This document shows positions 7,513 through 34,073 of a stretch of DNA of 34,073 nt, in pieces. Position numbers and translations under genes: made by a program. The notes under the pieces were generated by a model. That model was not told where the DNA came from. It made no database searches and saw only the letters and a list, made by a program, of their open reading frames with translations. The DNA is from Cafeteria roenbergensis (lineage: Eukaryota > Sar > Bigyra > Bicosoecida > Cafeteriaceae): NCBI GenBank assembly GCA_008330645.1, contig VLTN01000110.1, positions 1 through 34,073 on the forward strand. The letters run 5' to 3'. Positions within the stretch are counted from its first letter, which is position 1; every line of letters starts with the position of its first letter.

Positions 7513-10500
7513 CTAGGGCGTCGGCACGTGGTTGGGCACAAGCTCCACCACCACCTCGCTGCCGCCAGCAGTGGACCCAGTGCACACTGCCGGCACAAGC
7601 GAGTGCACGGTCCCCACCACGTCGGTATACGCCTCGCCGAGGGGCTCGCCGTTGTAGTAGAGCAGGATCGACCCCGTGTCCAGGTCCGCTGTGGCGCCGA
7701 GGTGGTCGCCGGCCGACACACGGATGCGCTCGCAGAAGGGCTCCCAGATCGGGCGCGAGCTGCCATGCGACACAGCGCGCTTGCCTGTGCGCGAGATGGC
7801 CCAGGAGTGGCGGGCCGTGCCAAGGTTGTCCGTCGTGGCGTGGAACTTGCGCGCGTCGACGAAGCCCCAGGCAATGCCTGCGTCGCACGCAAGCACCCTC
7901 AAGCCGAAGCAGAGCATGCCGCTGGCGCGGCCGGGATGGTCCGCCACTGCTGTGGCCCACTTGCCGTCGTTTTGGCACATGGCGTTGCCGCCCGAGAAGG
8001 CGAGCGAGCCCTTGGACCGCGCCGGGTCCCAGCGCGTCACGGCGGGCGGCACTGCCCGGAGCGCGGCGAGGTCGCCGCCGCTGGACGAGCCGATGCACAC
8101 AGCCGGCACGATTCGCCTGCCCGGGTCCATTTCCATCGGCACCTCGCCGAGGAGGCGGGCTCCCTTGTAGTACCGCACTGTGTGTCTGTCCAGGTCTGCA
8201 TCCGCCGTGATGACGTCGCCGTGGGACCAGGCGGAATCGAAGGAGGTCCACTTGCCCCTGGTGCTGATGCGACCGCGGCTCGAGAGCGCCATGGACCCCG
8301 CCGTCGCGCCGAGGATGCCCCTGCGCGGGTCGAACGCCACTGCGTCCGCGAAGCCGATCGCCCCACCGGCGCCCCTGTCCGTGGACAGCACCTCCACGGC
8401 GAAGGTGAGGTGGCCGGTGCGCGCCCCCTCGTGGTCCGCCAGGACAGTGGCCCACTTCCCCACCGTCTGAGTTTGCTCCCCGTCGTCGAGCACCACAGCG
8501 TCCCGACCGGCGCGGTAGGGGGTGAAGGACAGCGGGTACCTCGCCGGCTCCACGATGCGCACTCGGCAGAGGGTGTCCCCGGCAGAGGAGCCCAGACACA
8601 CGGCCGGGACCAGAAGGCGGCTGGCGAAGCCGTCGGTGTCGCCGTGGAAGGCCACGCCGAGGTCCACCTTGTTGAGCGCGAAGCGGATGCAGCCGGCGCT
8701 GGGATCCACCGCGCAGGTGACCGTGTCGCCGGAGGCGAAGGACACTCCGTAGGAGCGGAACCCAGACCCAGCGCCAGCCTTTCCCGTCTTGGAATAGGCC
8801 CAGCTGCCCTCGGCGGCGCCGAGGTTTGCTCGGCGGAAATCGAAATCGCTGTCGACGAATCCGACGGCCACGCCACCGCCCGCGTCCACCTTGTCGAGCT
8901 GCACGCTGAAGGCGAAGGGCGCCTCCGCCACCCCGTAGTGCGCTCCGAGGGCGGTGGCCCACTTTTCATCGTTCGTGACCACGGCCCCGTCGTCTGAGAG
9001 CCGCATGCGGGGGTGCCTGCGGACCGGGTCCAGGGCAACAAGCGGGGCCACAGCGAGCCGCAGGCGGGTGAGCTTGTCACCGGAGTTGGAGCCCATGCAC
9101 ACGGCCGGGATGAGAGCCTCCGCTGCGTCTGCCCCGTCGCGCACGAGCGGCACGACAGCGCCTTCGGCCTGCGCCACGCCGTTTCGCCGGAACCGGAGGG
9201 CCGCCTCGCCCGCCTCGTCCATTGAGAGGTCGATGTCAAGGTCATCTCCGGTGGCGAAGCGCTCTCCGTAGGAGGAAAAGCCCTGCCCGCCGATGCCGAG
9301 CTTGCCCGTCTTGGAATAGCACCATGAGGGGGGCTGAACGCCAAGGCTCTGCTCGGCGAAGACGAAGCTGGGGCTGCCGGCGACGCCCACCGCGGCGCCG
9401 CAGGAGGACTCGGCCGAGAGGACCTCGACCCTGATGGAGCGACGGCCCGCTGCCATGGCGGGCGCAAGCACGGCCACGCTGGACCAGCGCTTCTCGGTCT
9501 CGGCGACCCGGAGGCCGTCTGAGAGGGTCACGCGAGGGCTGCAGCTCTGGGGTCGAAGCGGGGGCGGGCCATGCTCGTCGCGGTAGGGGTGACACGCGCC
9601 CCGGCAGCGAGCGACGTGGTCTCCGCGTCCAGAATTGAGACGACTTCGGATCCGGCCGGCCTGCCAACGGCATCCATGCCTGTCGCCGCCGTGGCGGCGG
9701 CAGCGGCGGCGGCGACGCGGTCGCTGCGGCCAGCCAGCTCGGCGCTGCTGCCGCCGCCAACGCCTCCGACGTCGTCCTCCTCGTCGTCGATCTCTGCTGC
9801 GCTTGAGGACTTGGCGATCCGGCGACCGCGGGCAAGCAGGCCCTGCGGGGAGCTCGAGCCTGCTCCGGTCGCCGCCGCCGCGGCTGCTGCTGTGCCCGGC
9901 GCTGCCTCTGCGGCTGCCGCTGCCGCTGCCGCTGCGGCGGCTGGACGGGAGTCGCTGGTGGCCGGAGCAGCGGAACCTTGGCTTCGCTCCTTGCCCCGCA
10001 TCGCGAGGGGCGCAGCTTGGCCCGAGGCGGGGGCGCCGCCGCCCGCCGCGCCGCCCTCCGCGCTGCCCGCGGAAGTCGCCCGGCGGAGCCTCGAGGAGGG
10101 GGGCAGGAGGGCGGGCGCCACAGCTGCTGCCACCACGTAGCCCTGCGGCGACGTCTCGACTAGGTGGACGAGAGTCATCATGGCCAGGCCGGCCTCAGCG
10201 ACGTGCTCGGAGGGATTGAGCCGCTCTCCCGCGTGGATGAGGCTGCAGTGCTCCGCTGGGGTGTCCACGCCCAGCCGTACCCGTGCCGTGTCGAGGAGCA
10301 TGCGAAGGGACATGTCTCCCCACACCACCACGGAGCAGGTGCGTCCCCGCATCGTGCGCACGAACACTCGCTCGCCAGGAACCGACTCGTCCTCGTCCGC
10401 GGCGCCGCCGGCAGCCCCCGTCGCCAAACCCGCCGCCGCCAAAGCCGCCGCCGCCGCCAAAGCCCACCGCCGCCGCCAAAGCCACCGCCGCCGCCAAAGC

Positions 10501-12234: not shown

Positions 12235-12541
12235 GCCAGCCCGCGGCGCCGCGGCTGAGTGGCACGCCGAGAATTCGGCTCCAGCAGAAGTCGCCTTGAA
12301 TCAGGCCGAATGGCAATTGAAGGCTCCTCCCGACTCAAACGCCAAGTGGGGCGCAGTCCGTTTCCAGGCCCGTGCCTCTGCGACACTTTGCGCCCTCTCT
12401 AGTAGCGTGTCCGCCCATGTGCGCGAAGCGGGAGCTCCAAAAGCAACGCAGCCGGGGTCACGCCCAGGGCCGCGCACAATCTTGAGGAGCACAAAAAAGC
12501 GAGCGACCAAAAAAGCTGTATGCACCTTGAGTTTGGCAAAA
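12235..12541. other. Upstream region of the SPRY kinase gene
   Basis: About 300 bp lie between the ATG of the SPRY kinase gene and the 3' end of the first tRNA-like gene. The outer end of the left inverted-repeat arm falls at 12422. I see no coding signal. The kinase promoter should be here, which puts the repeat boundary close to it. Confidence 0.4.
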
Positions 12542-12614
12542 CATCCACGCCGAGTTTCGATCTCGGGACTTCTACCGTGTCAAGGTAGCACTCTACCAAC
12601 TGAGTTACGCGAAC
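12542..12614 (-). tRNA. tRNA-Val(GAC)-like, copy 1
   Basis: The 73-nt cloverleaf has a 7-bp acceptor containing three G-T wobbles, a D-stem ACTC/GAGT, an anticodon stem CTACC/GGTAG with loop TTGACAC (anticodon GAC), and a T-stem CCGAG/CTCGG with loop ATCGAAA. A TTTT Pol III terminator follows immediately at 12541-12538. A tail shared with all other copies comes next (GCCAAACTCAAGGTGCATA, then a second T-run). Eukaryotic nuclear genomes normally read Val codons with AAC, whereas GAC is typical of bacteria and plastids. The D-arm TAACTCAG resembles plastid trnV-GAC. The discriminator base is G instead of A, so aminoacylation is uncertain. It lies in the left inverted-repeat arm. Confidence 0.8.
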
Positions 12615-13002
12615 ATACACCAAATATGGAAGATCTTGACATCTCAATCCTATATGATGCAGCAGGCGCACTCACCGCGCCATCCGCGTCTGCCCTCCCG
12701 TCCCTGCCGACCCACATCGCCCCGCACTGCCCCTCCGCCGCAAGCACACGCCACAGCGCCTCCCTGTGAGCGCACCATGCCCCGGTTTGACAGCGAGGCC
12801 GCCGACAGCCCGGCCTCCAGGCGAGGCAGTGCGTACCTGCTCTCGCACGCCACCCCCCCCCCCCCCCCCCTTTCCCCACGCTGCCCTGCCGAGGGGAAAG
12901 GCTGTCGCGCCTGCTCGCGGCATCGGCTGGATGGTGAAAAGCGAGGAGGCGGGAGCCCAGACAGCGAGGACCAAAAAGCTATGCACCTTGAGTTTGGCAA
13001 AA
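12615..13002. other. Spacer between tRNA copies 1 and 2
   Basis: A GC-rich spacer inside the left arm with an 18-base poly-C run at 12853-12870 and no coding signal. Read on the minus strand, the 45 bases upstream of tRNA copy 1 include TATATAGGATTG-like AT-rich sequence (about 12645-12660), a possible TATA-like Pol III upstream element. The right arm carries the same sequence. Confidence 0.45.
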
Positions 13003-13075
13003 CATCCACGCCGAGTTTCGATCTCGGGACTTCTACCGTGTCAAGGTAGCACTCTACCAACTGAGTTACGCGAAC
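13003..13075 (-). tRNA. tRNA-Val(GAC)-like, copy 2
   Basis: This tRNA sequence matches copy 1 over its 73 nt, with the same TTTT terminator and 3' tail. Upstream on the minus strand is the segment that in the other arm follows the CX9C gene. It is the partner of copy 4 (19534-19606). Confidence 0.8.
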
Positions 13076-13271
13076 AGACGAGTGAAGGCGACGAAAAGTG
13101 CGGATGTTGATAATGTGGCTATGCCGTCGCCTGCACAGCGCGCTGATTCCCTCCACACCGCAACCAGGCCCCGCCGCCGCGCACGCTGAGTGCGGCCGCT
13201 CTCGGGGATCCGAGTGGGAATGTCAGATTATGGGGCGAAGCAGCGGCGCACCCACTCAGAACTCCTCGGTG

Positions 13272-13415
13272 AACACGACGACCTCACTCAGCAATTCACG
13301 CTCCACATGGCCTTTGCGCACAAATCGGCCGCCAATGCGTCGTCGTTGCGGATTCGCAAGTGCAAGAAGGCGTGCAGCCAACCAAAAAGAGCTATGCACC
13401 TTGAATTTGGCAAAA
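13272..13415. other. Junction between inverted-repeat arm and tRNA copy 3
   Basis: This sequence lies between the inner end of the left arm and tRNA copy 3. On the minus strand one frame reads RRRIGGRFVRKGHVERE and ends in VFTEEF-stop, borrowing its last four codons from the repeat arm. The GGRFVRK part resembles the end of a CCT motif. No splice acceptor suits that frame, and another frame here is also open, so I do not call a gene. Confidence 0.25.
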
Positions 13416-18557: not shown

Positions 18558-19353
18558 ATGGCGGCAGCTCGCAACGCCATCGAGGCGACCAAGGCCGCAG
18601 GCCCAGAGGACGCGTTTGTCGTGCAGACTGTCAGCGACGGGGCGTCGTGGCGCAGCGGCCCGAGGTCGTCTGTCGTCCCGACGGCAGCCGCTACCCCTGC
18701 CGACCAGGCCCACTTCACGACGCTGACCAGGTTCCTCGACACCGAGCCGTACAAGAGCATCATGGAGGGGCTGGCCCAGTCCCGGCATCTCTGCTCCCAG
18801 GAGCGCCTCGCTGTGTCTCTGTGCCAGGCCGAGAAGCCGTCGCACCTCAAGGCCAGCTTCTGCTCCGAGAAGCTGTTTGACCACAAGCGCTGCATGATGA
18901 AGCTGTGAGTTACCCGTCAGCGCCCACGCAGAGGGCATGCAACCTGCTGGCCCCGAGCGCGCTGCCAGCGCGGCGCTGCTTTCAGGTCGAGCCTGCCAGC
19001 CGCCAGCCATTGCAGGGAAAACACCGCTCAGTCACGCCGCAGCAGCGACCAGCTTGCACCCCGCGCCCCCGGCTTGGGAAGCACTACACGGGCCGCTTCC
19101 TGCGCCCTCTGCGGAGGCCACTGGGGCACACTCCCTGCGCATCGCCGTGCTCATTCGCCAATCCGCCTGCTCCGCACTCCTCCTCCCGTTTGCCTCTCGC
19201 AGCGCGCGTTTCACCCAGCGTGAGTGCACCTCCGAGCTCAAGGGCCTTGCTAGCTGCATGAGGCAGCAGGGCGGCAGCGGCTCTGACCCGCGTGCAGTGT
19301 CCGCGTGCGCGGATCGCTTCCTGGCGTTTGACATGTGCACCGAGGAGTTCTGA
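18558..19353 (+). CDS. Four-CX9C (double CHCH) mitochondrial protein, NDUFA8-like
   Basis: CHCH proteins are imported into the mitochondrial intermembrane space and oxidised through Mia40. Those with two CHCH units include complex I subunit NDUFA8. Exon 1 is 18558-18904 and exon 2 is 19203-19353. The 298-bp intron has a GTGAGT donor and a pyrimidine-rich CTCTCGCAG acceptor, and the phase is preserved. The product is 165 residues; human NDUFA8 is 172. Exon 1 carries CSQERLAVSLC and CSEKLFDHKRC. Exon 2 carries CTSELKGLASC and CADRFLAFDMC. All four are exact C-X9-C motifs. There is no N-terminal presequence, as expected for this import route. The last four codons and stop are shared with the inverted-repeat arm beginning at 19338. 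The assignment to NDUFA8 rests on motif number and length; another four-CX9C family is possible. Confidence 0.8.
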
Positions 19354-19533
19354 GTGGGTGCGCCGCTGCTTCGCCCCATAATCTGACATTCCCACTCGGA
19401 TCCCCGAGAGCGGCCGCACTCAGCGTGCGCAGCGGCGGGGCCTGGTTGCGGTGTGGAGGGAATCAGCGCGCTGTGCAGGCGACGGCATAGCCACATTATC
19501 AACATCCGCACTTTTCGTCGCCTTCACTCGTCT

Positions 19534-19606
19534 GTTCGCGTAACTCAGTTGGTAGAGTGCTACCTTGACACGGTAGAAGTCCCGAGATCGAAACTCGGCG
19601 TGGATG
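19534..19606 (+). tRNA. tRNA-Val(GAC)-like, copy 4
   Basis: A 73-nt cloverleaf identical to copies 1-3, with anticodon GAC in loop TTGACAC. The A-box TAACTCAGTTGG departs from consensus only at position 10 (A for G). The B-box is weaker: T-loop ATCGAAA has A54, a feature best known from eukaryotic initiator tRNA. A TTTT terminator at 19607-19610 is followed by the shared tail and a second T-run near 19631. It lies 180 bp downstream of the CX9C gene stop. Confidence 0.8.
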
Positions 19607-19996
19607 TTTTGCCAAACTCAAGGTGCATAGCTTTTTGGGTCCTCGCTGTCTGGGCTCCCGCCTCCTCGCTTTTCACCATCCAGCCGATGCCGCGAGCAGG
19701 CGCGACAGCCTTTCCCTCGGCAGGGCAGCGTGGGGAAAGGAGAGGGGGGGGGGGGGGTGGCGTGCGAGAGCAGGTACGCACTGCCTCGCCTGGAGGCCGG
19801 GCTGTCGGCGGCCTCGCTGTCAAACCGGGGCATGGTGCGCTCACAGGGAGGCGCTGTGGCGTGTGCTTGCGGCGGAGGGGCAGTGCGGGGCGATGTGGGT
19901 CGGGCAGGGACGGGAGGGCAGACGCGGATGGCGCGGTGAGTGCGCCTGCTGCATCATATAGGATTGAGATGTCAAGATCTTCCATATTTGGTGTAT
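19607..19996. other. Spacer between tRNA copies 4 and 5
   Basis: The mirror of 12615-13002. It starts with the tRNA trailer and contains a 14-base poly-G run (19744-19757) and a GC-rich non-coding stretch. It ends with an AT-rich segment (CATCATATAGGATTGAG, about 19953-19969) upstream of copy 5 that could act as a TATA-like Pol III element. Confidence 0.45.
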
Positions 19997-20069
19997 GTTC
20001 GCGTAACTCAGTTGGTAGAGTGCTACCTTGACACGGTAGAAGTCCCGAGATCGAAACTCGGCGTGGATG
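19997..20069 (+). tRNA. tRNA-Val(GAC)-like, copy 5
   Basis: A 73-nt sequence identical to the other copies, with TTTT terminator at 20070-20073. Its tail differs by one substitution (AACTTAAGG for AACTCAAGG). It is the partner of copy 1. Upstream sequence TTCCATATTTGGTGTAT is shared with copy 1 but not with copies 2-4. Confidence 0.8.
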
Positions 20070-20429
20070 TTTTGCCAAACTTAAGGTGCATAGCTCGTTT
20101 TGGTCCTCGCTTTTTTGTGCTCCTCAAGATTGTGCGCGGCCCTGGGCGTGACCCCGGCTGCGTTGCTTCTGGAGCTCCCGCTTCGCGTTGGAGGGGGAGA
20201 AAGGAGAGCCTGAAGTGGCGTTCATCATTGCGAGCTCAATGTGTGCCGAGTGCCACTTTGCGCGCCTCTTTTTTTACCAAGGGCGAGTGCAAACAACCCG
20301 GAATGCCACACCCTGTCAGATGAATGTGATGTGCCTCTAGTTTAAACTGAGCAATCGACGTTCTCGTCGCAGTGGACCTGACGGGACTTTTCCGGACCCG
20401 AAGACATGCTGAGCAAGCTATGCCCCTTT

Positions 20430-20743
20430 TGTCCGGCAACGCCTCCGATTCGCCCTGGTGCGTGTGATCGTAGGGAATGGTGATCACGCATCCAGCAGTG
20501 GCCAAATGGGCACCTGTTAGGTGTCCGGCGCCAGCAGGCTAGGAGTGGCAGTGCCTTGCTCGGAGTCTGCACCCACAGGGGCACTGAAACCTCGCAAGCC
20601 ACCTCCCAGCCTGCCGCGGGATGGGCGGGCGGGTCACGAATGCGGCTTTGCTCTCACACAACCTCAAAGCCGACCGCAACGGGCCCTGGAGTGCTGTGCG
20701 AGCGTTCGCACGGCACGGCGGGCAAAGCGAAGCGCACGCTGCG
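20430..20743. repeat. 314-bp direct repeat, copy A
   Basis: Essentially identical to 24418-24731 in the same orientation, starting TGTCCGGCAACGCCTCC and ending CGCACGCTGCG. It contains a short palindrome (GTGCGAGCGTTCGCAC) near its end. It has no convincing coding content. Its right edge abuts the AT-rich island exactly. Confidence 0.9.
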
Positions 20744-20939
20744 TGTTATAGTTTAGTATATTGCTGAATATGGTGATATTTCATCGCGGCCAAAATGTGT
20801 GTATAGTTCTGTGTTATAGTTTAGTATATTGCTGAATATGGTGATATTTCATCGCGGCCAAAATGTGTGTATAGTACTATACACACATTTTGGCCGCGAT
20901 GAAATATCACCATATTCAGCAATATATTTAACTATAACA
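20744..20939. repeat. Three 64-bp units, two forming a near-perfect hairpin
   Basis: Unit 1 (20744-20807) is followed by TCTG, then a direct copy (20812-20875) and an inverted copy (20876-20939). The palindrome is centred between 20875 and 20876 at TATAGTACTATA. Each unit runs TGTTATAG to GTGTATAGT and includes CATCGCGGCCAAAATGTGTG. Only two mismatches separate the hairpin arms. Confidence 0.9.
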
Positions 20940-21282
20940 GTGATTATTCGCTGAATATATTGAAAACAGTGAATATATGTTGCCCAAATATGTTAGCAGG
21001 TATTACGGGGTAAAAACTTTGCAATGTTGTCCAAAAAGTTAACAGGTAAATCATAACGTTTATCGAAAGTACCTATAAGTACCGAAAAGTACCTGGAAAT
21101 TCTCAGCGGGTATTGCCTGCTAAAAATTATCCAATGTTGCCCAGAAAATCAGCGGGTAATTATTCCCCATGCTGTACAGTGTTTTTCGCGGGAATTGTTC
21201 GGGAAGCATGGGGTACCCCCCATGGGTTCAGTGTGATTCTTTGTATTATTGCTCTGTGGGAGCATTTCGGGGATAAGAGAGG

Positions 21283-21332
21283 TGTCTCGGCAATGCCATT
21301 TTTATCTATAGTAAAATGTCATTGCCAAGACA
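21283..21332. repeat. Hairpin H1
   Basis: Stem TGTCTCGGCAATG (21283-21295) pairs with CATTGCCAAGACA (21320-21332) with one G-T. Inner stem CATTTTTA pairs with TAAAATG around the loop TCTATAG. It shares its core (AGTAAAATG, then CCAAGACA) with H2. Confidence 0.8.
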
Positions 21333-21377
21333 GCGTACAAAACACAACTGCAGGTTTTGGGGAAAGTTGTCGAAAGT

Positions 21378-21448
21378 TTAGCGGGTACTGCGGGGGGAGA
21401 AATTAGCGGGATGGGGAAAAGGGGGAGTTTTGGGGTTTTGTGTGTATA
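21378..21448. repeat. 70-bp direct repeat, first copy
   Basis: It starts TTAGCGGGTACTGCGGGG and ends in TTTTGTGTGTATA. It repeats at 21606-21674 with a few indels. Each copy is followed within about 60 bp by H2 or by a TGTGTGTATA mini-hairpin. Confidence 0.8.
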
Positions 21449-21503
21449 TTAAAAAATCCTGTTATCATCTTGCACATGGTTTGGGATTCTGTGTACAAAA
21501 CGA

Positions 21504-21570
21504 TAGTGGAGGTGTCTTGTTTTATACTTTTTCTCTCTAGTAAAATGTATTATCCAAGACACCTCCACTA
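21504..21570. repeat. Hairpin H2
   Basis: A perfect 16-bp stem: TAGTGGAGGTGTCTTG (21504-21519) with CAAGACACCTCCACTA (21555-21570). The inner sequence TTTTTCTCTCTAGTAAAATG is clearly related to the H1 core. Confidence 0.85.
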
Positions 21571-21605
21571 ATTTTACTGCAGTTCTCCGTGGCTTCCGCT
21601 AATTG

Positions 21606-21674
21606 TTAGCGGGTACTGCGGGGGGAGAAATTAGCAGGGTGGGAAAAGGGGATTTGGGGGATTTTGTGTGTATA
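21606..21674. repeat. 70-bp direct repeat, second copy
   Basis: The partner of 21378-21448. It ends in TGTGTGTATA, which pairs with TATACACACA at about 21695-21704 to form a 10-bp mini-hairpin with a 20-nt loop. Confidence 0.8.
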
Positions 21675-21840
21675 CTACCTTTTTCTCGTATTGTTATACA
21701 CACATTCTGGGTGCGGTTGGGGGGCTAAACGTCATTCATTTGTTTTAAAAAAGTGGGACTGTGAATTGAACTAGCGATAATTCAGTACATAGTTGGAGCC
21801 ATAGTTGTAGCCATTTGTGTGTATACTAACAAGACATGGT

Positions 21841-21885
21841 GCCCGGCAATCCCATTGCCTCTATAGTTAACTGGGTTATCCGGGC
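21841..21885. repeat. Hairpin H3
   Basis: GCCCGG (21841-21846) pairs with CCGGGC (21880-21885), with further imperfect pairing inside. The CTCTATAG loop region and an upstream AAGACA link it loosely to H1 and H2. It is weaker than the other two. Confidence 0.55.
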
Positions 21886-22499
21886 AATGTGCGTATAGTG
21901 ATTTCGGGGTTTTGGCGACTTCACGAAAACCCCAGCCAAGGCAGCAGCCCTCGTCTCGACACCGTTTTTGCTGGGTCTCCGAAAGTCTCAATGGGGAACT
22001 GCGGGTTGGCGACTGGGAAGACCGTGTACTTCGTGGGATTTTTGCGACATTGTGTTTTGTTTGAATCAAACGGTGGTATTCAAAACCAAACTATGACTTA
22101 ACTATGGGAGGGGTATTTCGACCCCCCGGACACTCCGAGACGTCCGAGGCGTCGTGCGGGTGCATGACTCGTCCCCTTGGATGGAATCGTGCGAATTCGT
22201 ACGATAGGGTCGTTTTTTGTGTGTGAAGTCTTCGTTTAATCATGCGAATTCTTCTGTTTGCCGTTGCTTGAACCGTAGCCTTGGAGACGATCTTGTTTGT
22301 TCGCAGGGCAATATAACGGTCGAACAAACGCGCTTCCCCCTCTGCTCCTCCCCGCCCGCAGCCCGAGCCGGCGAGCTGAGATACCTGGTTTCGACTCGTG
22401 CAAATCTTGCTGACATCCAAGTCTTCGACTACCGCGTGACTGAAGCCTCTGTGTGACAAAGCAGTAACGTAATTCACTCACGCCTAATGCTTTGACAAC

Positions 22500-22730
22500 A
22501 TGAGCTCCATTGTACCCTTCGTCGTCACGACCACGGGGCGCATGGGACCGGCGGCGTTTGACTTCCTGAGAAAGGTGGCAAACACGGCCTTTGGTGACGA
22601 GCCGAGGGAGAGGGCGCGCTGGGCCTTTCGGTGGCTGTCGAAGCTGAACGAGGTCATCGCCAAGGGGCTGGCGACGCAGCTCATCTGGCAGACGCAGTAC
22701 CTGTGGCAGCAGGTGGAGCGTCGGCGGTGA
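22500..22730 (+). pseudogene. Fragment resembling reverse transcriptase C-terminus of a LINE-type element
   Basis: A 76-residue frame from ATG 22500 to TGA 22728-22730. It carries VPFVVTTTGRMGPAAFDFL, then a helical Trp-containing segment (RWAFRWLSKLNEV) ending QQVERRR. This pattern resembles the extreme C-terminus of non-LTR retrotransposon proteins, where a TTxGxxG-type motif follows the RT domain. An in-frame TAA at 22485 and AT-rich sequence upstream show that no RT catalytic domain is attached, as in a 5'-truncated copy. The stop codon is part of GGTGAGTGCG, which is also a good 5' splice site, so a first exon of a host gene is the alternative. The family call is from pattern memory and needs a profile search. 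Confidence 0.45.
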
Positions 22731-23273
22731 GTGCGCAGGTGGGGGTGTGGGAGCTGGTGGATGGACTTGGACTGGGACTGGGGTTTGAGGTGCCTGGGAT
22801 TGCTGGTTTGCGGGTGTGCTGGATGGGGACTTGGGCTTGCGCTTCTGGGTCTGCTGGTTCGCGCGCTCTGTGACTCATTGGGGATGGATATGCTGGCTTT
22901 GCCGTGTTTCATGAGGCTGAGTAGGACTGTGTGGATGCTGGTTGCTCGTCGTGTTTTTTCCCCCCCCCCTATGATGCTGAGATCCTACGATGCTGCGAAC
23001 CTGCTCCCTTGTTATTGGGGTTGAAGCAACGAGGGAATGGTTGCACGATGTTGCCCAAATGGCTCAAGTTTCGGCACGGCGGGGACCGCCAGGGTCGCCC
23101 GAGGGACGGGAGGGAGGGTCACGCGATTTCGCACATACACTTCACGCAGGGCGCGGGCGTACGACGGTTACGGGGGGAATCATCGGAGAGCCCAACTTGG
23201 GCTCGGGACCGGAGTGCTCGCCTGAGGCTGGGGTGTCGCCAACCTTTCGACATGCCCTTGGCCGCTTTGAACC
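22731..23273. other. Unassigned sequence between RT-like fragment and palindrome
   Basis: GT-rich at first (repeated CTGGGACTGG/TGGGGT-like stretches), with a run of nine C near 22967, then average GC. No domain is recognisable in any frame. It may hold the 3' UTR of the truncated retroelement. Confidence 0.4.
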
Positions 23274-23858
23274 CTATCGGGTTGCCCTCCACAGCCAAAC
23301 CGCTGTCAGCACGAGCCCGACGGAAATTACACAATCCGAGAGCGAGAGCCTCGGCATCCAAGTTGACGGTCCCGCCCCCCCCGACTTGGACGGATTCGCT
23401 TTGGTGCTCGCCGCAGCTTCCTTCGGATGGCGTCTGCGCGCCGCGGCTTCCTCCTCATGGCGTCTGCGCGCCGCGGCTTCCTCCTCATGGCGTCTGCGCG
23501 CCGCGGCTTCCTCCTTATGGCGTCTGCGCGCCGCGGCTTCCTCCTCATGGCGTCTGCGCGCCGCGGCTTCCTCCTCATGGCGTCTGCGCGCCGCGGCTTC
23601 CTCCTCATGGCGTCTGCGCGTCTCGACGTTCTGCCAGTAGCGCTCGACCGTGTTGAGGCTTACACCCCAGTGCACGTTTTCTGGGTGTGTATCGTCTCCG
23701 TTGTCCATGTTCTGCTTGATCCTCTCCAGCATCCCATAAGCGGTGCGAACATCTCCTGGCGCATCGGCCGGAGGCTTTCGAGGCATATCGGGCATGGCTT
23801 GGAAAGTGTGCAGCCTGTGCGAAAGCGAACTTTCTGCGTTGCCAAGCCGCATAGCCAT
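23274..23858 (-). CDS. Unknown tail-anchored protein with RRRHEEEAAA repeats
   Basis: I do not recognise the family. ATGs at 23858 (MAMRLGNAESS) or 23795 (MPDMPRKPPADAPGD) open a protein of about 194 or 173 residues. The N-terminal region contains MLERIKQNMDNGDDTHPENV and NTVERYWQNVET. Six near-perfect copies of the ten-residue unit RRRHEEEAAA follow (30-bp DNA unit, 23427-23606), then a degenerate one. The alternating basic and acidic blocks predict a rigid single alpha-helix. The C-terminus is a hydrophobic segment (CVISVGLVLTAVWLW) followed by RATR and the stop, as in tail-anchored membrane proteins. The whole gene except its last codons sits in the left arm of a palindrome, with a mutated second copy facing it. 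Expression is unproven, but the intact frame here versus the broken twin suggests this is the functional copy. Confidence 0.5.
   Translation of the reverse strand: MAMRLGNAESSLSHRLHTFQAMPDMPRKPPADAPGDVRTAYGMLERIKQNMDNGDDTHPENVHWGVSLNTVERYWQNVETRRRHEEEAAARRRHEEEAAARRRHEEEAAARRRHKEEAAARRRHEEEAAARRRHEEEAAARRRHPKEAAASTKANPSKSGGAGPSTWMPRLSLSDCVISVGLVLTAVWLWRATR
23291..23848. repeat. Left arm of ~0.53-kb palindrome
   Basis: The reverse complement of 23894-24417, beginning ACAGCCAAACC. It has one more 30-bp tandem unit than the right arm. The short spacer (about 23849-23893) contains CATTCCGCGTAGC repeated twice. Confidence 0.9.
23427..23606 (-). repeat. 30-bp tandem repeat, six units
   Basis: Units start at 23427, 23457, 23487, 23517, 23547 and 23577 (plus strand ATGGCGTCTGCGCGCCGCGG plus CTTCCTCCTC), with a partial seventh at 23607. 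They are in frame with the minus-strand protein and encode RRRHEEEAAA. Confidence 0.95.
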
Positions 23859-23893
23859 TCCGCGTAGCCAGCCATTCCGCGTAGCAACGCGGT

Positions 23894-24417
23894 TTGGCAA
23901 CGCGGAAGTTCGCTTTCGCACAGGCTGCACACTTTCCAAGCCATGCCCGATATGCCTCGAAAGCCTCCGGCCGATGCGCCAGGAGATGTTCGCACCGCTT
24001 ATGGGATGCTGGAGAGGATCAAGCAGAACATGGACAACGGAGACGATACACACCCAGAAAACGTGCACTGGGGTGTAAGCCTCAACACGGTCGAGCGCTA
24101 CTGGCAGAACGTCGAGACGCGCAGACGCCATGAGGAGGAAGCCGCGGCGCGCAGACGCCATCCGGCGGAAGCCGCGGCGCGCAGACGCCATGAGGAGGAA
24201 GCCGCGGCGCGCAGACGCCATAAGGAGTAAGCCGCGGCGCGCAGACGCCATGAGGAGGAAGCCGCGGCGCGCAGACGCCATCCGAAGGAAGCTGCGGCGA
24301 GCACCAAAGCGAATCCGTCCAAGTCGGGGGGGGCGGGACCGTCAACTTGGATGCCGAGGCTCTCGCTCTCGGATTGTGAAATGTCCGTCGGGCTTGTGCT
24401 GATAGTGGTTTGGCTGT
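23894..24417. repeat. Right arm of ~0.53-kb palindrome
   Basis: It mirrors 23291-23848 and ends TTTGGCTGT at 24417, directly abutting direct-repeat copy B at 24418. Changes relative to the left arm include one fewer 30-bp unit, a PAE variant and a stop codon. Confidence 0.9.
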
Positions 24418-24455
24418 TGTCCGGCAACGCCTCCGATTCGCCCTGGTGCGTGTGA
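23943..24455 (+). pseudogene. Broken second copy of the RRRHEEEAAA protein
   Basis: It starts with the same MPDMPRKPPADAPGD at 23943 and matches the minus-strand copy through the repeats. A GAA-to-TAA change at 24228-24230 ends translation after RRRHKE. Beyond the stop the frame stays intact through the remaining repeats and a diverged membrane segment (EMSVGLVLIVVWLL), then runs into the flanking direct repeat to a stop at 24453-24455. Frame retention after the stop suggests a recent event. Confidence 0.65.
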
Positions 24456-24731
24456 TCGTAGGGAATGGTGATCACGCATCCAGCAGTGGCCAAATGGGCA
24501 CCTGTTAGGTGTCCGGCGCCAGCAGGCTAGGAGTGGCAGTGCCTTGCTCGGAGTCTGCACCCACAGGGGCACTGAAACCTCGCAAGCCACCTCCCAGCCT
24601 GCCGCGGGATGGGCGGGCGGGTCACGAATGCGGCTTTGCTCTCACACAACCTCAAAGCCGACCGCAACGGGCCCTGGAGTGCTGTGCGAGCGTTCGCACG
24701 GCACGGCGGGCAAAGCGAAGCGCACGCTGCG
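24418..24731. repeat. 314-bp direct repeat, copy B
   Basis: The same sequence and length as 20430-20743. Its left edge is the outer end of the palindrome and its right flank (CGCGCCTTGCC) differs from that of copy A. Confidence 0.9.
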
Positions 24732-25130
24732 CGCGCCTTGCCAGCGAGCTGCTTGTCTTGGCCGCCGACGCAGGCGGGTAGACTTGAGCTCGAGACCCTC
24801 TGAGTCACGCCGAGGGCACCCCCAGCACGCTGTGGGGGAGCCGCGTAGCCCAAGAGAGTGTCGTGACGATGCCAGATGGCTCGTCTGTTTTGTCGGGGTA
24901 GAATCTACGTCTGCGGACAAATATGAACCCAACCGGTTACCGAACGAACTGCCCAGCAACGGCACGGCTTCTACCCACAACAGATGTTTTTAGCCAACAG
25001 ACGTAGTGAAAGGCCGAGACGGGAGCAAGCGGCTCTCCAAACTGGCACTTGATCTTGGCGGGCAAATCTCAAGGGCAAGCAAGGTTGGATGAGAACCACG
25101 TTGGTGCACGAATAGCCAGCGGCACTCTTC
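24732..25130. other. Intergenic, 3' of the ARP4-like gene
   Basis: About 400 bp with no recognised gene. It contains a short inverted pair, CTACGTCTG (about 24906) and CAGACGTAG (about 24999). It should include the 3' UTR of the minus-strand ARP gene. Confidence 0.4.
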
Positions 25131-26995
25131 TCAAATACACCTGGCGAGTAGCTTCGAAGCGTCCCCAGAGTCCCACTCCTTCGCACTGATGAAAAGGTCT
25201 GGTAGCGTGCCTGCAGACGCGATGATCGAGCCTCCCATCCACGGTGAGTGCGTGACTTCGCTGAGAGGAACAGGCAGCAGGTGAACAGCCAACCCAGCGG
25301 CCAACGCGTCTGGCTGCGCCAGCTCCCACGAAAGGCGGTCCGCACAGTGCCCTGTGCGGGAGACCCCACCAGTGAGCAGCACTGCCTCGCCACACGCTCT
25401 ACGTGCACTCTCTTCGCACGCGAAGAGCGACGCCGCGACCATCATCGGGATGGTTGCAGCCCCAGGCGGCAGGGCAGGGAACTCCGAACTGCTTTCGTCC
25501 GCAGCTGTGCTGGCTGGAGTGTCTGGTGCGTCCTCCCGGAACAGCACGTCACCGAGGCGAGCCCTCGCTTCACCGCTCAGCCTGTGCGGGCCCACAACCA
25601 CTGGCTTTGGGACAAGCGGCGGCTTTGCCAGGTCGAACGTGCCGTCACCTGCAAGCAATGGTTGGCAGCAGTCGGCTGTTGCCTCCCTCAAACTCCTGGC
25701 GCTGTCCAAAAGTGCGCGAGCTGACGCATCCGTCGCCAGAAGCGAGGCGGGGTCCACAGGACACGTCGAGGCCTTCCCCACAGAAGAGCGCGTGATGACA
25801 GAGGTTGCCAAGTCCATAAAGTCCCCAGCGACGGTGGACTGGCGATGCGCCATAACGAGAGGATACCCTGCCTCTACGGGCGTAACACGGCAGCCCGAAG
25901 CACCAATGTCGATCACCAGGCCAGAAACAAAGCCGTGAGCAAAGCTGCGACAGCGAGACAGCATTCCGCACGCAGGCACCAACAAGGCACTGACCAGGAC
26001 GCACGAGGTCCGTCGGCGCTCACGCAGCACCGACTCGCGGGCAGGGGCTGAGTCCACCCATCTCTCTCCTGCTACTCGCTCGCCCGCGCTCGCTGCCCGG
26101 TGGATGGGCATCGAGCCGGGCAGGGCGTGCACGCCGCGCGCTGCGGATGATGCAAAGCTCCCCGTCCGCAGGCAGAGAGCACTCACCAGATGGCCACCGG
26201 CTCCCGGATAAACGAAATCCCAGCGGCTCCCCTCCAAGCCAGGGCCTCCTCAGCCCACGCCTCGCGGGCAGCGCGCGGCGCGAGAAGGTTGTCAACGACG
26301 AGGAGGCGGCGGCCCTGAAGCGCACTGCGACGCAAAGACCCCCCAGATCCGCCGCCAGGACAGGAAGAGCTTGTCGACGAGGATGGCAGGGAGCTCGAAG
26401 GGGCAGCAAGAGCCGCCTGCGCGGCGGCCGAGGGCGGCGCCGCCTCTCCGTCGGCACGAGAAAGGGCCCTCTCAATATGGGCCCAGGCTGCGTCCCAGTC
26501 CGACACAAGACCGGCCTTGACGGGAGAGGTGACTTCACACCCAGCTGGAGCCGCACCTGCAGCGAAGAAGATGCGCCGGCCAGTCGTGGGCCGCGGCCGC
26601 TTGCGGCTCCCCCCGGCGGCGGGGCCTCCGGGGGCCTCGGGCGCAGCCCACACCGTCTGTGACACGGTACACACGGTGGGCACAGTGAGCGCGAAAGACG
26701 TCGGCAGACACAGGGCGACCCATCCCAGCAAACAAGCCGGCTGGGGACGGCAGCGCAGGCAGCACGCAGGAACAACGCTCACCGAGGGCTCGTCGTAGAA
26801 TGGCACCGCATCTCCTGCAAACCCAATGCGAACGCTGTGCGTTCCAAAGTTGCACACGACGATGGAAGTATCGGGTCCCCCAGCTGCGGGTGCACATTGG
26901 CGCGGGAGGGCAAGGCTGGAGCCGTCTCGGAACAAGCGCAGGTCGTTGAGCTGCCCTGGCCCACGCGCCACGAGCCGAGGAGCACTCTCACCCAT
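25131..26995 (-). CDS. ARP4: Actin-related protein, ARP4/BAF53-like
   Basis: ARP4 is a nuclear actin-fold subunit of NuA4, SWR1 and INO80 chromatin complexes. Proposed exons: 26995-26783, 26656-26187 and 25944-25131. The introns are 126 and 242 bp, with GTGAGC and GTGAGT donors, ACAG and GCAG acceptors, and conserved phases (about 498 residues). Exon 1 has the actin phosphate-1 loop region (SIVVCNFGTHSVRIGFAGD, then FYDEPS). Exon 2 has SPVKAGLVSDWDAAW and LAPRAAREAWAEEAL. Exon 3 has phosphate-2 motif GLVIDIGASGCRVTPV, an AGDF motif typical of ARP4, LLTGGVS and the C-terminal SPWMGGSIIASAGTL. Low-complexity insertions account for the extra length over the usual 430-490. The start is uncertain; ATG 26995 is the best in-frame candidate, and the first codons look unlike actin. 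It is divergent from the Tdp1 gene. Confidence 0.8.
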
Positions 26996-33792: not shown

Positions 33793-34073
33793 GGAGGCGA
33801 CAGCGAGAGCTTGGGGCGCGTAGGGAGTGTGCCAGATTCCGAGAAGGCCGATGGCAGGGAACGCCCCGTGGTAACTTGCCTTGGCGGGACGAGAGCAGCA
33901 GCCTTGCCATGCAACACGAACACGCTCCAGCAAGGCATGAGCCCTCGCGCTGCGCGCTAGGCCAGCCCACAAAAGAGAGTGAGAGAGAGAAGGAAAAAAA
34001 AAAACTGCACTCAGATCCCGTCGTCAAAGCCTCGCCGCCGAGGGAGCCACGCGACGCTCACGCGCGGGAGCCG
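33793..34073. other. Right edge, no gene recognised
   Basis: 281 bp with a purine-rich tract (GAGAGTGAGAGAGAGAAGG and A11, about 33976-34005). It is probably ValRS 3' UTR and flank. Confidence 0.4.

Follow-up and report, generated by a model that had tools for sequence, protein, structure and literature searches.

A probable nested insertion of Ngaro-type repeats and a virophage-type terminus in a Cafeteria roenbergensis contig

The stretch of DNA analysed here (the window) takes in all of contig C110 of Cafeteria roenbergensis (VLTN01000110.1; 34,073 bp), and our genome searches covered the 36.3-Mb, 167-contig assembly that contains it. Within this window we find two copies of a direct repeat and a segment enclosed between them, which a preliminary description had put forward as a previously undescribed composite and a candidate for a new mobile system. 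The two copies, at 20430–20743 and 24418–24731, are identical at 314/314 positions, stand at a spacing of 3,988 bp and enclose 3,674 bp, in agreement with that description. The 314 bp are not a natural length. The right copy runs on to 24945 as a complete solo unit of ~529 bp with a natural start and a natural end (24418–24945, plus strand), and the left copy (20430–20743, plus strand) comprises positions 1–314 of this unit, the AB unit of a Ngaro-type retroelement (see below), with a natural start and a truncated end; the length of 314 bp arises because a virophage-type terminus begins at that point in the left copy. Both inner edges are as sharp as had been reported, the left one being a 68-bp direct repeat (previously given as 64 bp; 20743–20875, 2.0 copies in Tandem Repeats Finder) followed by an inverted copy, and the right one the end, at 24417, of a palindrome whose arms pair 23435–23832 with 23906–24303 at 98% and 23291–23602 with 24106–24417 at 95%. 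A chance origin of the repeats and the palindrome was rejected, the similarity being far beyond chance. The enclosed DNA had also been called foreign in composition, which holds for its first part: G+C content is 43% in 20744–22300, 61% in 22301–23290 and 63% in 23291–24417, the 5-kb flanks having 65% and 68%. Clearly foreign composition is confined to the first block, and 22301–24417 resembles the flanks.

The same region without the repeats and their contents is present on contig C10. The left flank of the window segment (20112–20429) corresponds to C10:125994–126311 and the right flank (24946–25250) to C10:125689–125993, both at 98% identity; the two abut on C10, and the joined flanks align without a gap across the junction between CCCCTTT and GAACTGCC. 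Relative to this empty site, which lies between C10:125993 and 125994, the whole of 20430–24945 on the plus strand is an insertion of 4,516 bp without target-site duplication. The preliminary description had suggested looking for an empty site with one 314-bp copy in another strain; an empty site exists in the same assembly, and its flanks are directly adjacent with no base between them. Comparing C110 with C10 at the contig ends and around the insertion, we found that window base 1 corresponds to C10:146400 and base 34073 to C10:116873, with 95–99% identity in the stretches compared. The 34,073 bp of C110 thus stand against 29,528 bp on C10, and the insertion makes up 4,516 bp of the difference of 4,545 bp. 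Most simply, C110 is a second, unmerged haplotype of C10, and the insertion is probably heterozygous. Between the same two contigs, a ~6-kb interval flanked by inverted tRNA-Val blocks (12422–13275 and 19334–20187, ~98%) differs in orientation at both sampled edges (C10:125994–133998), an apparent inversion.

Long terminal repeat (LTR) retrotransposons have two matching terminal repeats and a short target duplication at their outer edges. LTR-like termini had been one of the options for the window repeats, and the whole segment was rejected as such an element, as its repeats are unequal (314 vs 528 bp) and its flanks join with zero duplicated bases.

A genome search with the 314-bp repeat, as the preliminary description had suggested, returned at least 42 matches (40 of 138 candidates were scored, hence 42 is a lower bound). 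Among the matches listed, 12 are identical over 314 bp, the window pair included, and the identity of the window pair alone is therefore no proof of a link between its members. Ends were examined in 30 of the 42 listed matches, both window copies included; the remaining 12 (2 of them partial) fall outside this classification, as do matches at loci L015 (92%, full length), L024 (185 and 46 bp), L034 (157 bp), L010 (43 bp) and L026 (39 bp), which are partial or more diverged. The 30 copies are not all independent, flanks being shared in L006/L007/L035, in L002/L005 and in the two copies of L045. All 30 begin sharply at TGTCCGG after upstream flanks that mostly differ, some being shared. Complete units of ~529 bp without a second copy of positions 1–186 account for 20/30, so that solo copies do exist elsewhere; 8/30 run straight into a second copy of 1–186, and 2/30 (the left window copy and L043) are truncated.

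The arrangement from which these units derive is seen complete in locus L037 (2022–8885, corresponding to C107:22221–29084), where an AB unit (2022–2551) is followed by a second copy of 1–186 (2552–2737) and positions 198–530 occur again at 8554–8885. Read on the minus strand, this gives most of A (8885–8554), the frames and the 1–186 copy (B1), followed by A2 and B2. L037, the one element in which both ends were checked, thus has split direct repeats of the form A1-[ORFs]-B1A2B2 (ORFs, open reading frames). A frame of 516 amino acids at L037:3869–5419 matches RT_RNaseH above the Pfam cut-off (E 1.2e-5), together with RVT_1 (E 7.7e-5) and RT_RNaseH_2 (E 2.9e-6), both under their cut-offs. A second frame, of 371 amino acids, is a putative tyrosine recombinase with an HAFR motif and a downstream tyrosine recognised by eye; a recombinase remnant on contig C31 that shares 36.5% identity with it matches PF00589 at E 0.0022, under the cut-off. 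The 314-bp repeat thus belongs to the AB unit of a Ngaro-type retroelement with split direct repeats, and split-repeat retroelement termini, among the options first considered, proved right.

Ngaro elements are not known to duplicate their target on insertion. The window site shows none, nor do the solo copies at L005/L002 and L036; these are the 3 of 19 complete units lacking B1 for which ungapped full-length empty sites were found (L005 and L002 share the same flank), the remaining 16 giving partial or no matches among the loci compared. In the survey of Cafeteria burkhardae (published as C. roenbergensis), Ngaro elements (order DIRS) are described with the same A1-[ORFs]-B1A2B2 structure, alongside scattered 'isolated AB repeats' that are likened to solo LTRs (PMC8547959), which matches the split repeats and reverse transcriptase/RNase H of L037 and the dispersed solo AB units found here. 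The assignment is made at the level of Ngaro elements as a kind, of which four types have been published. The window differs in holding AB units only, one of them cut at 314 by another element, and taking the segment as one Ngaro element fails: it has AB(1–314) at one end, a complete AB at the other and no further copy.

The element that cuts the left AB unit starts with a terminal tip (20744–20939, plus strand), which begins with TGTTATAG, is made up of an extra 68-bp arm and a 128-bp palindrome (97% complementary), and is a natural terminus of a virophage-type inverted repeat. The long palindrome with this same tip start follows unrelated flanks in four plus-strand relatives (L010, L014, L016 and L018), and a search with the tip pattern at up to 3 mismatches returned 64 matches in 36 clusters, compared with 7 matches for the reversed control. 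In the window the tip arm occurs three times within 20744–20939 (two direct, one inverted), compared with twice at the other tips examined. The tip is followed by AT-rich terminal-inverted-repeat sequence (20940–21476, plus strand), assigned by alignment to an element on contig C58 and to other copies: identity to the C58 inverted repeat is 72–73% across the initial ~500 bp, rising to 85% in 21299–21476, identity to most other copies is 75–77%, and a fragment on C76 reaches 90% (20812–21316). The C58 element (C58:11506–30457, comprising L051 and L052) is 18.95 kb long and has two tips, inverted repeats of ~1 kb at 99.6% and a 5-bp target duplication, AGACC. Its capsid frame matches PDB 6g45, a mavirus-type capsid, at E 1.7e-29 and Pfam MCP_V20_C, and further open frames are fibre-like (Peptidase_S74), primase-helicase (primase-type domains) and matched by transposase-type PHROGs. 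With inverted repeats, target duplication and capsid gene all present, we read the C58 element as an endogenous mavirus-like element (EMALE).

The insert thereby comes close to the EMALEs described in C. burkhardae (PMC8547959): it has the terminal tip with its long palindrome, and its inverted-repeat sequence is related to that of the C58 element. It differs from them in having a left end only, with one tip in the window. It also differs in content: the 48 C58-region frames (stop-to-stop, ≥100 amino acids) used for the virophage-gene comparison match the insert only through frames that lie in or reach into the inverted repeats. A search of the genome for type-B DNA polymerase (PF03175) gave no match, but neither did its controls, and it therefore carries no weight. 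On C88, ends of the virophage type at 13169–13298 and 20238–20367 lie ~7 kb from each other and point the same way, as might be expected of a truncated or abutting element.

Beyond the terminus, the insert is related to an inverted-repeat element of 8.4 kb on contig C31 (C31:100971–109347; L055, L019, L022, L023 and L056 lie in C31:100700–109800). The arms of this element share 99.5% identity over 2.75 kb, and a target duplication, GCTGA, flanks it. The window shares an arm with it at 21301–22986 (plus strand), where 21935–22986 aligns to both C31 arms at 82% and earlier, shorter blocks at 75–82%. A 17-bp tandem motif at 23853–23885 (plus strand) forms a 33-mer found elsewhere in exact form only at C31:104690–104739, just inside a C31 arm, and nowhere else even at 3 mismatches. 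Among exact tip matches, the G variant of the tip occurs only in C110, C31 and C76. The shared arm, the exclusive 33-mer and the G variant therefore tie 20744–24417 to one C31-like element. The two also differ: the C31 element has both ends, its duplication and another central frame, whereas its truncated counterpart in the window holds the inverted gene pair. The stretch 23046–23217 resembles repeats at C52, C3 and C14 as well, at 78–81%.

Three coding features lie within this cargo. The reverse-transcriptase-like fragment noticed earlier is real: 22494–22731 (plus strand), inside the stretch shared with the C31 arms, is the C-terminal coding part of an RVT_1 retroelement, is 86–89% identical to many dispersed copies, and has the same sequence that ends a long RVT_1 frame on C109 (E 1.5e-20; L026 and L067, joined in frame by their coordinates, C109:29868–33716). 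Many dispersed fragments repeat the last ~80 codons of the C109 frame, and for many of these the start of a contig is no more than ~12 kb away. The other two features form the inverted gene pair: a frame of 173 amino acids on the minus strand (23277–23795), with 30-bp repeats and a C-terminal hydrophobic stretch recognised by eye, and its inverted right copy on the plus strand (23943–24417), which has one internal stop and breaks off precisely where the right AB unit begins. The DNA of this palindromic block occurs in the assembly in this window only. The 173-amino-acid frame is unmatched in PHROGs at E 0.01 and reaches only E 0.15–0.38 in Pfam, far under the cut-offs; in viral contigs, 23 pattern matches yielded 0 confirmed relatives; and the genome outside the window gave five matches, to the repeat region only (E 7e-7 to 4e-5), which we read as compositional. 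The central frame of the C31 element is open and 506 amino acids long; it has no second copy in the genome, and the parts of it that were searched gave no hit in Pfam (E 1) or in PHROGs (E 0.01). The 48 frames of the C58 region match the C31 element, too, only through frames that lie in or reach into the inverted repeats. The Ngaro-like recombinase remnant mentioned above adjoins the left tip of C31.

Taken together, these data make it probable that 20430–24945 is one insertion of nested mobile-element remnants, present in one of two near-identical versions of the region. Both outer edges of the insertion are natural AB ends, the left AB is broken at 314 by a natural virophage-type tip, and the right palindrome arm stops exactly where the right AB starts. 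A history consistent with these edges would begin with a Ngaro element that inserted between 20429 and 24946 without target duplication and was reduced by A1×A2 recombination to a solo AB. A short virophage-ended element related to that of C31 would then have entered this solo AB after position 314, and a second Ngaro or AB would have landed in the inverted gene pair of the virophage-ended element. Finally, the second AB would have recombined with the 3' remainder of the first, so that the virophage-ended element lost its right half and a complete AB was rebuilt at the right edge. This single step would account at once for three missing pieces, namely the remainder of the first AB, the terminus on the right and what else belonged to the palindrome arm. 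Such recombination between AB units would keep the original outer flanks. The survey offers a precedent for nested EMALE/Ngaro insertion in EMALE03 of strain Cflag, which is interrupted by two Ngaro1 copies and itself lies inside Ngaro4; locus and strain differ from ours, and the insertions there are Ngaro elements, not solo AB units (PMC8547959).

Several observations weigh against this history. A narrow scan of the insert found no right virophage tip with the expected duplication behind it, no intermediate stage was found, and the order of the steps after the solo AB is inferred from parsimony only. The sites that separate AB subfamilies (326, 367, 368, 376 and 401) all lie beyond position 314, and neither the subfamily of the left copy nor the recombination can therefore be read from variants. 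Both window AB copies are preceded by T, whereas most examined copies are preceded by C. For the Ngaro assignment itself, the reverse transcriptase frame of L037 has no PDB match at E 0.01, and the putative tyrosine recombinase gave no hit in Pfam (E 0.1) or in PDB (E 1). A mosaic right AB, young on the left and old on the right, had been suggested by L050, which is identical over 315–528 and differs at 11/314 positions on the left; it was dropped, as 10 of the 11 sites cluster at 48–79 and other compared copies share the window state there.

The nested insertion and the recombination-mediated capture named in the preliminary description both fit the exact edges, and the segment, for which an empty site was found, is a true insertion. 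Under ectopic capture, an AB(1–314)-insert-AB arrangement would have been made elsewhere and then transferred, through gene conversion or a double crossover that relied on AB homology at either side, to a solo AB already in place. Exchange substrate is ample, AB units being numerous and 12 of the 42 listed identical over 314 bp, and capture predicts, as is seen, the outer edges of one simple AB insertion. However, no donor was found, the palindromic block is restricted to the window in the assembly, and the long relatives of 21935–22986 among the matches listed are the two C31 arms only, at ~82% (all 37 candidates scored in one search, the best 40 of 361 in another). We regard capture as unlikely. 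The four AB and virophage-tip edges, all natural termini, would also suit two independent solo AB insertions accompanied by separate deletions of the left AB remainder and of the right half of the element. That course would require a deletion whose end happens to coincide with the last base of the right AB, and it leaves unexplained why the flanks rejoin exactly as for one AB insertion without duplication, which makes it quite improbable.

The remaining two explanations concern the segment as a whole. The assembly that is probably the source is a Canu/PacBio draft with 13–45× long-read coverage per strain (PMC6972860), and the survey authors state that some EMALEs may hold assembly errors (PMC8547959), so that an artefactual join of repeat-rich reads deserves consideration. 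Against it, the outer junctions are base-exact with respect to an independent contig, C110 matches C10 at both ends, the 529-bp repeats should be short relative to long reads, and the authors report breaking contigs at unexpected drops in coverage (PMC6972860); a join is very unlikely. Nanopore resequencing has since been reported for strains BVI and E4-10 (PMC10945749). A composite unit of 4.5 kb moved in one step by a Ngaro recombinase, with the AB units as its ends, would be in keeping with the single net insertion, the natural AB ends and the missing target duplication, all of which fit recombinase integration. Yet the repeats are not in the order of a split-direct-repeat element, ends of the B1-A2-B2 and A1 forms both being absent; the assembly holds the palindromic block at this locus alone; and a left AB ending at a virophage tip is explained by simple nesting. 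We give this one-step movement the lowest probability of all. The earlier proposal of an undescribed composite or new mobile system is accordingly not supported: the repeats are ordinary dispersed repeats of a described kind, and nothing in our data shows movement of the segment as a unit.

One part of the nest may nevertheless be new. We tentatively suggest, as something possible and less than even in our estimate, that the insert and the C31 element represent an undescribed family with virophage-type ends, none of the tested virophage genes and cargo of its own, which may be moved by the integrase of full-length virophages as non-autonomous satellites and forms layers with Ngaro elements within shared nests. 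The base for such a family is one complete copy with target duplication (C31) and one truncated relative (the window). Three considerations count against it. The recombinase remnant at the left end makes it possible that the C31-like element is a recombinant or decayed virophage; the survey includes three truncated EMALEs of 5–15 kb (PMC8547959); and the virophage genes compared were those of the C58 region. Our search of the open-licence PMC literature, including passages of PMC12220804, brought up no account of short elements that have virophage ends but lack virophage genes. The survey names, as a class it might have missed, elements that bear no recognisable similarity to virophages and have a host-like G+C content (PMC8547959).

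The nest is ordinary in kind and informative in detail, and a new mobile system is not needed to explain it. The candidate system is replaced by layered parasitism that can be followed to the exact base, a retroelement, a virophage-type element and again a retroelement, with an empty version of the layered site present in the same assembly. If it is true that such elements move with the help of endogenous virophages, the parasite chain of Cafeteria would gain another level.

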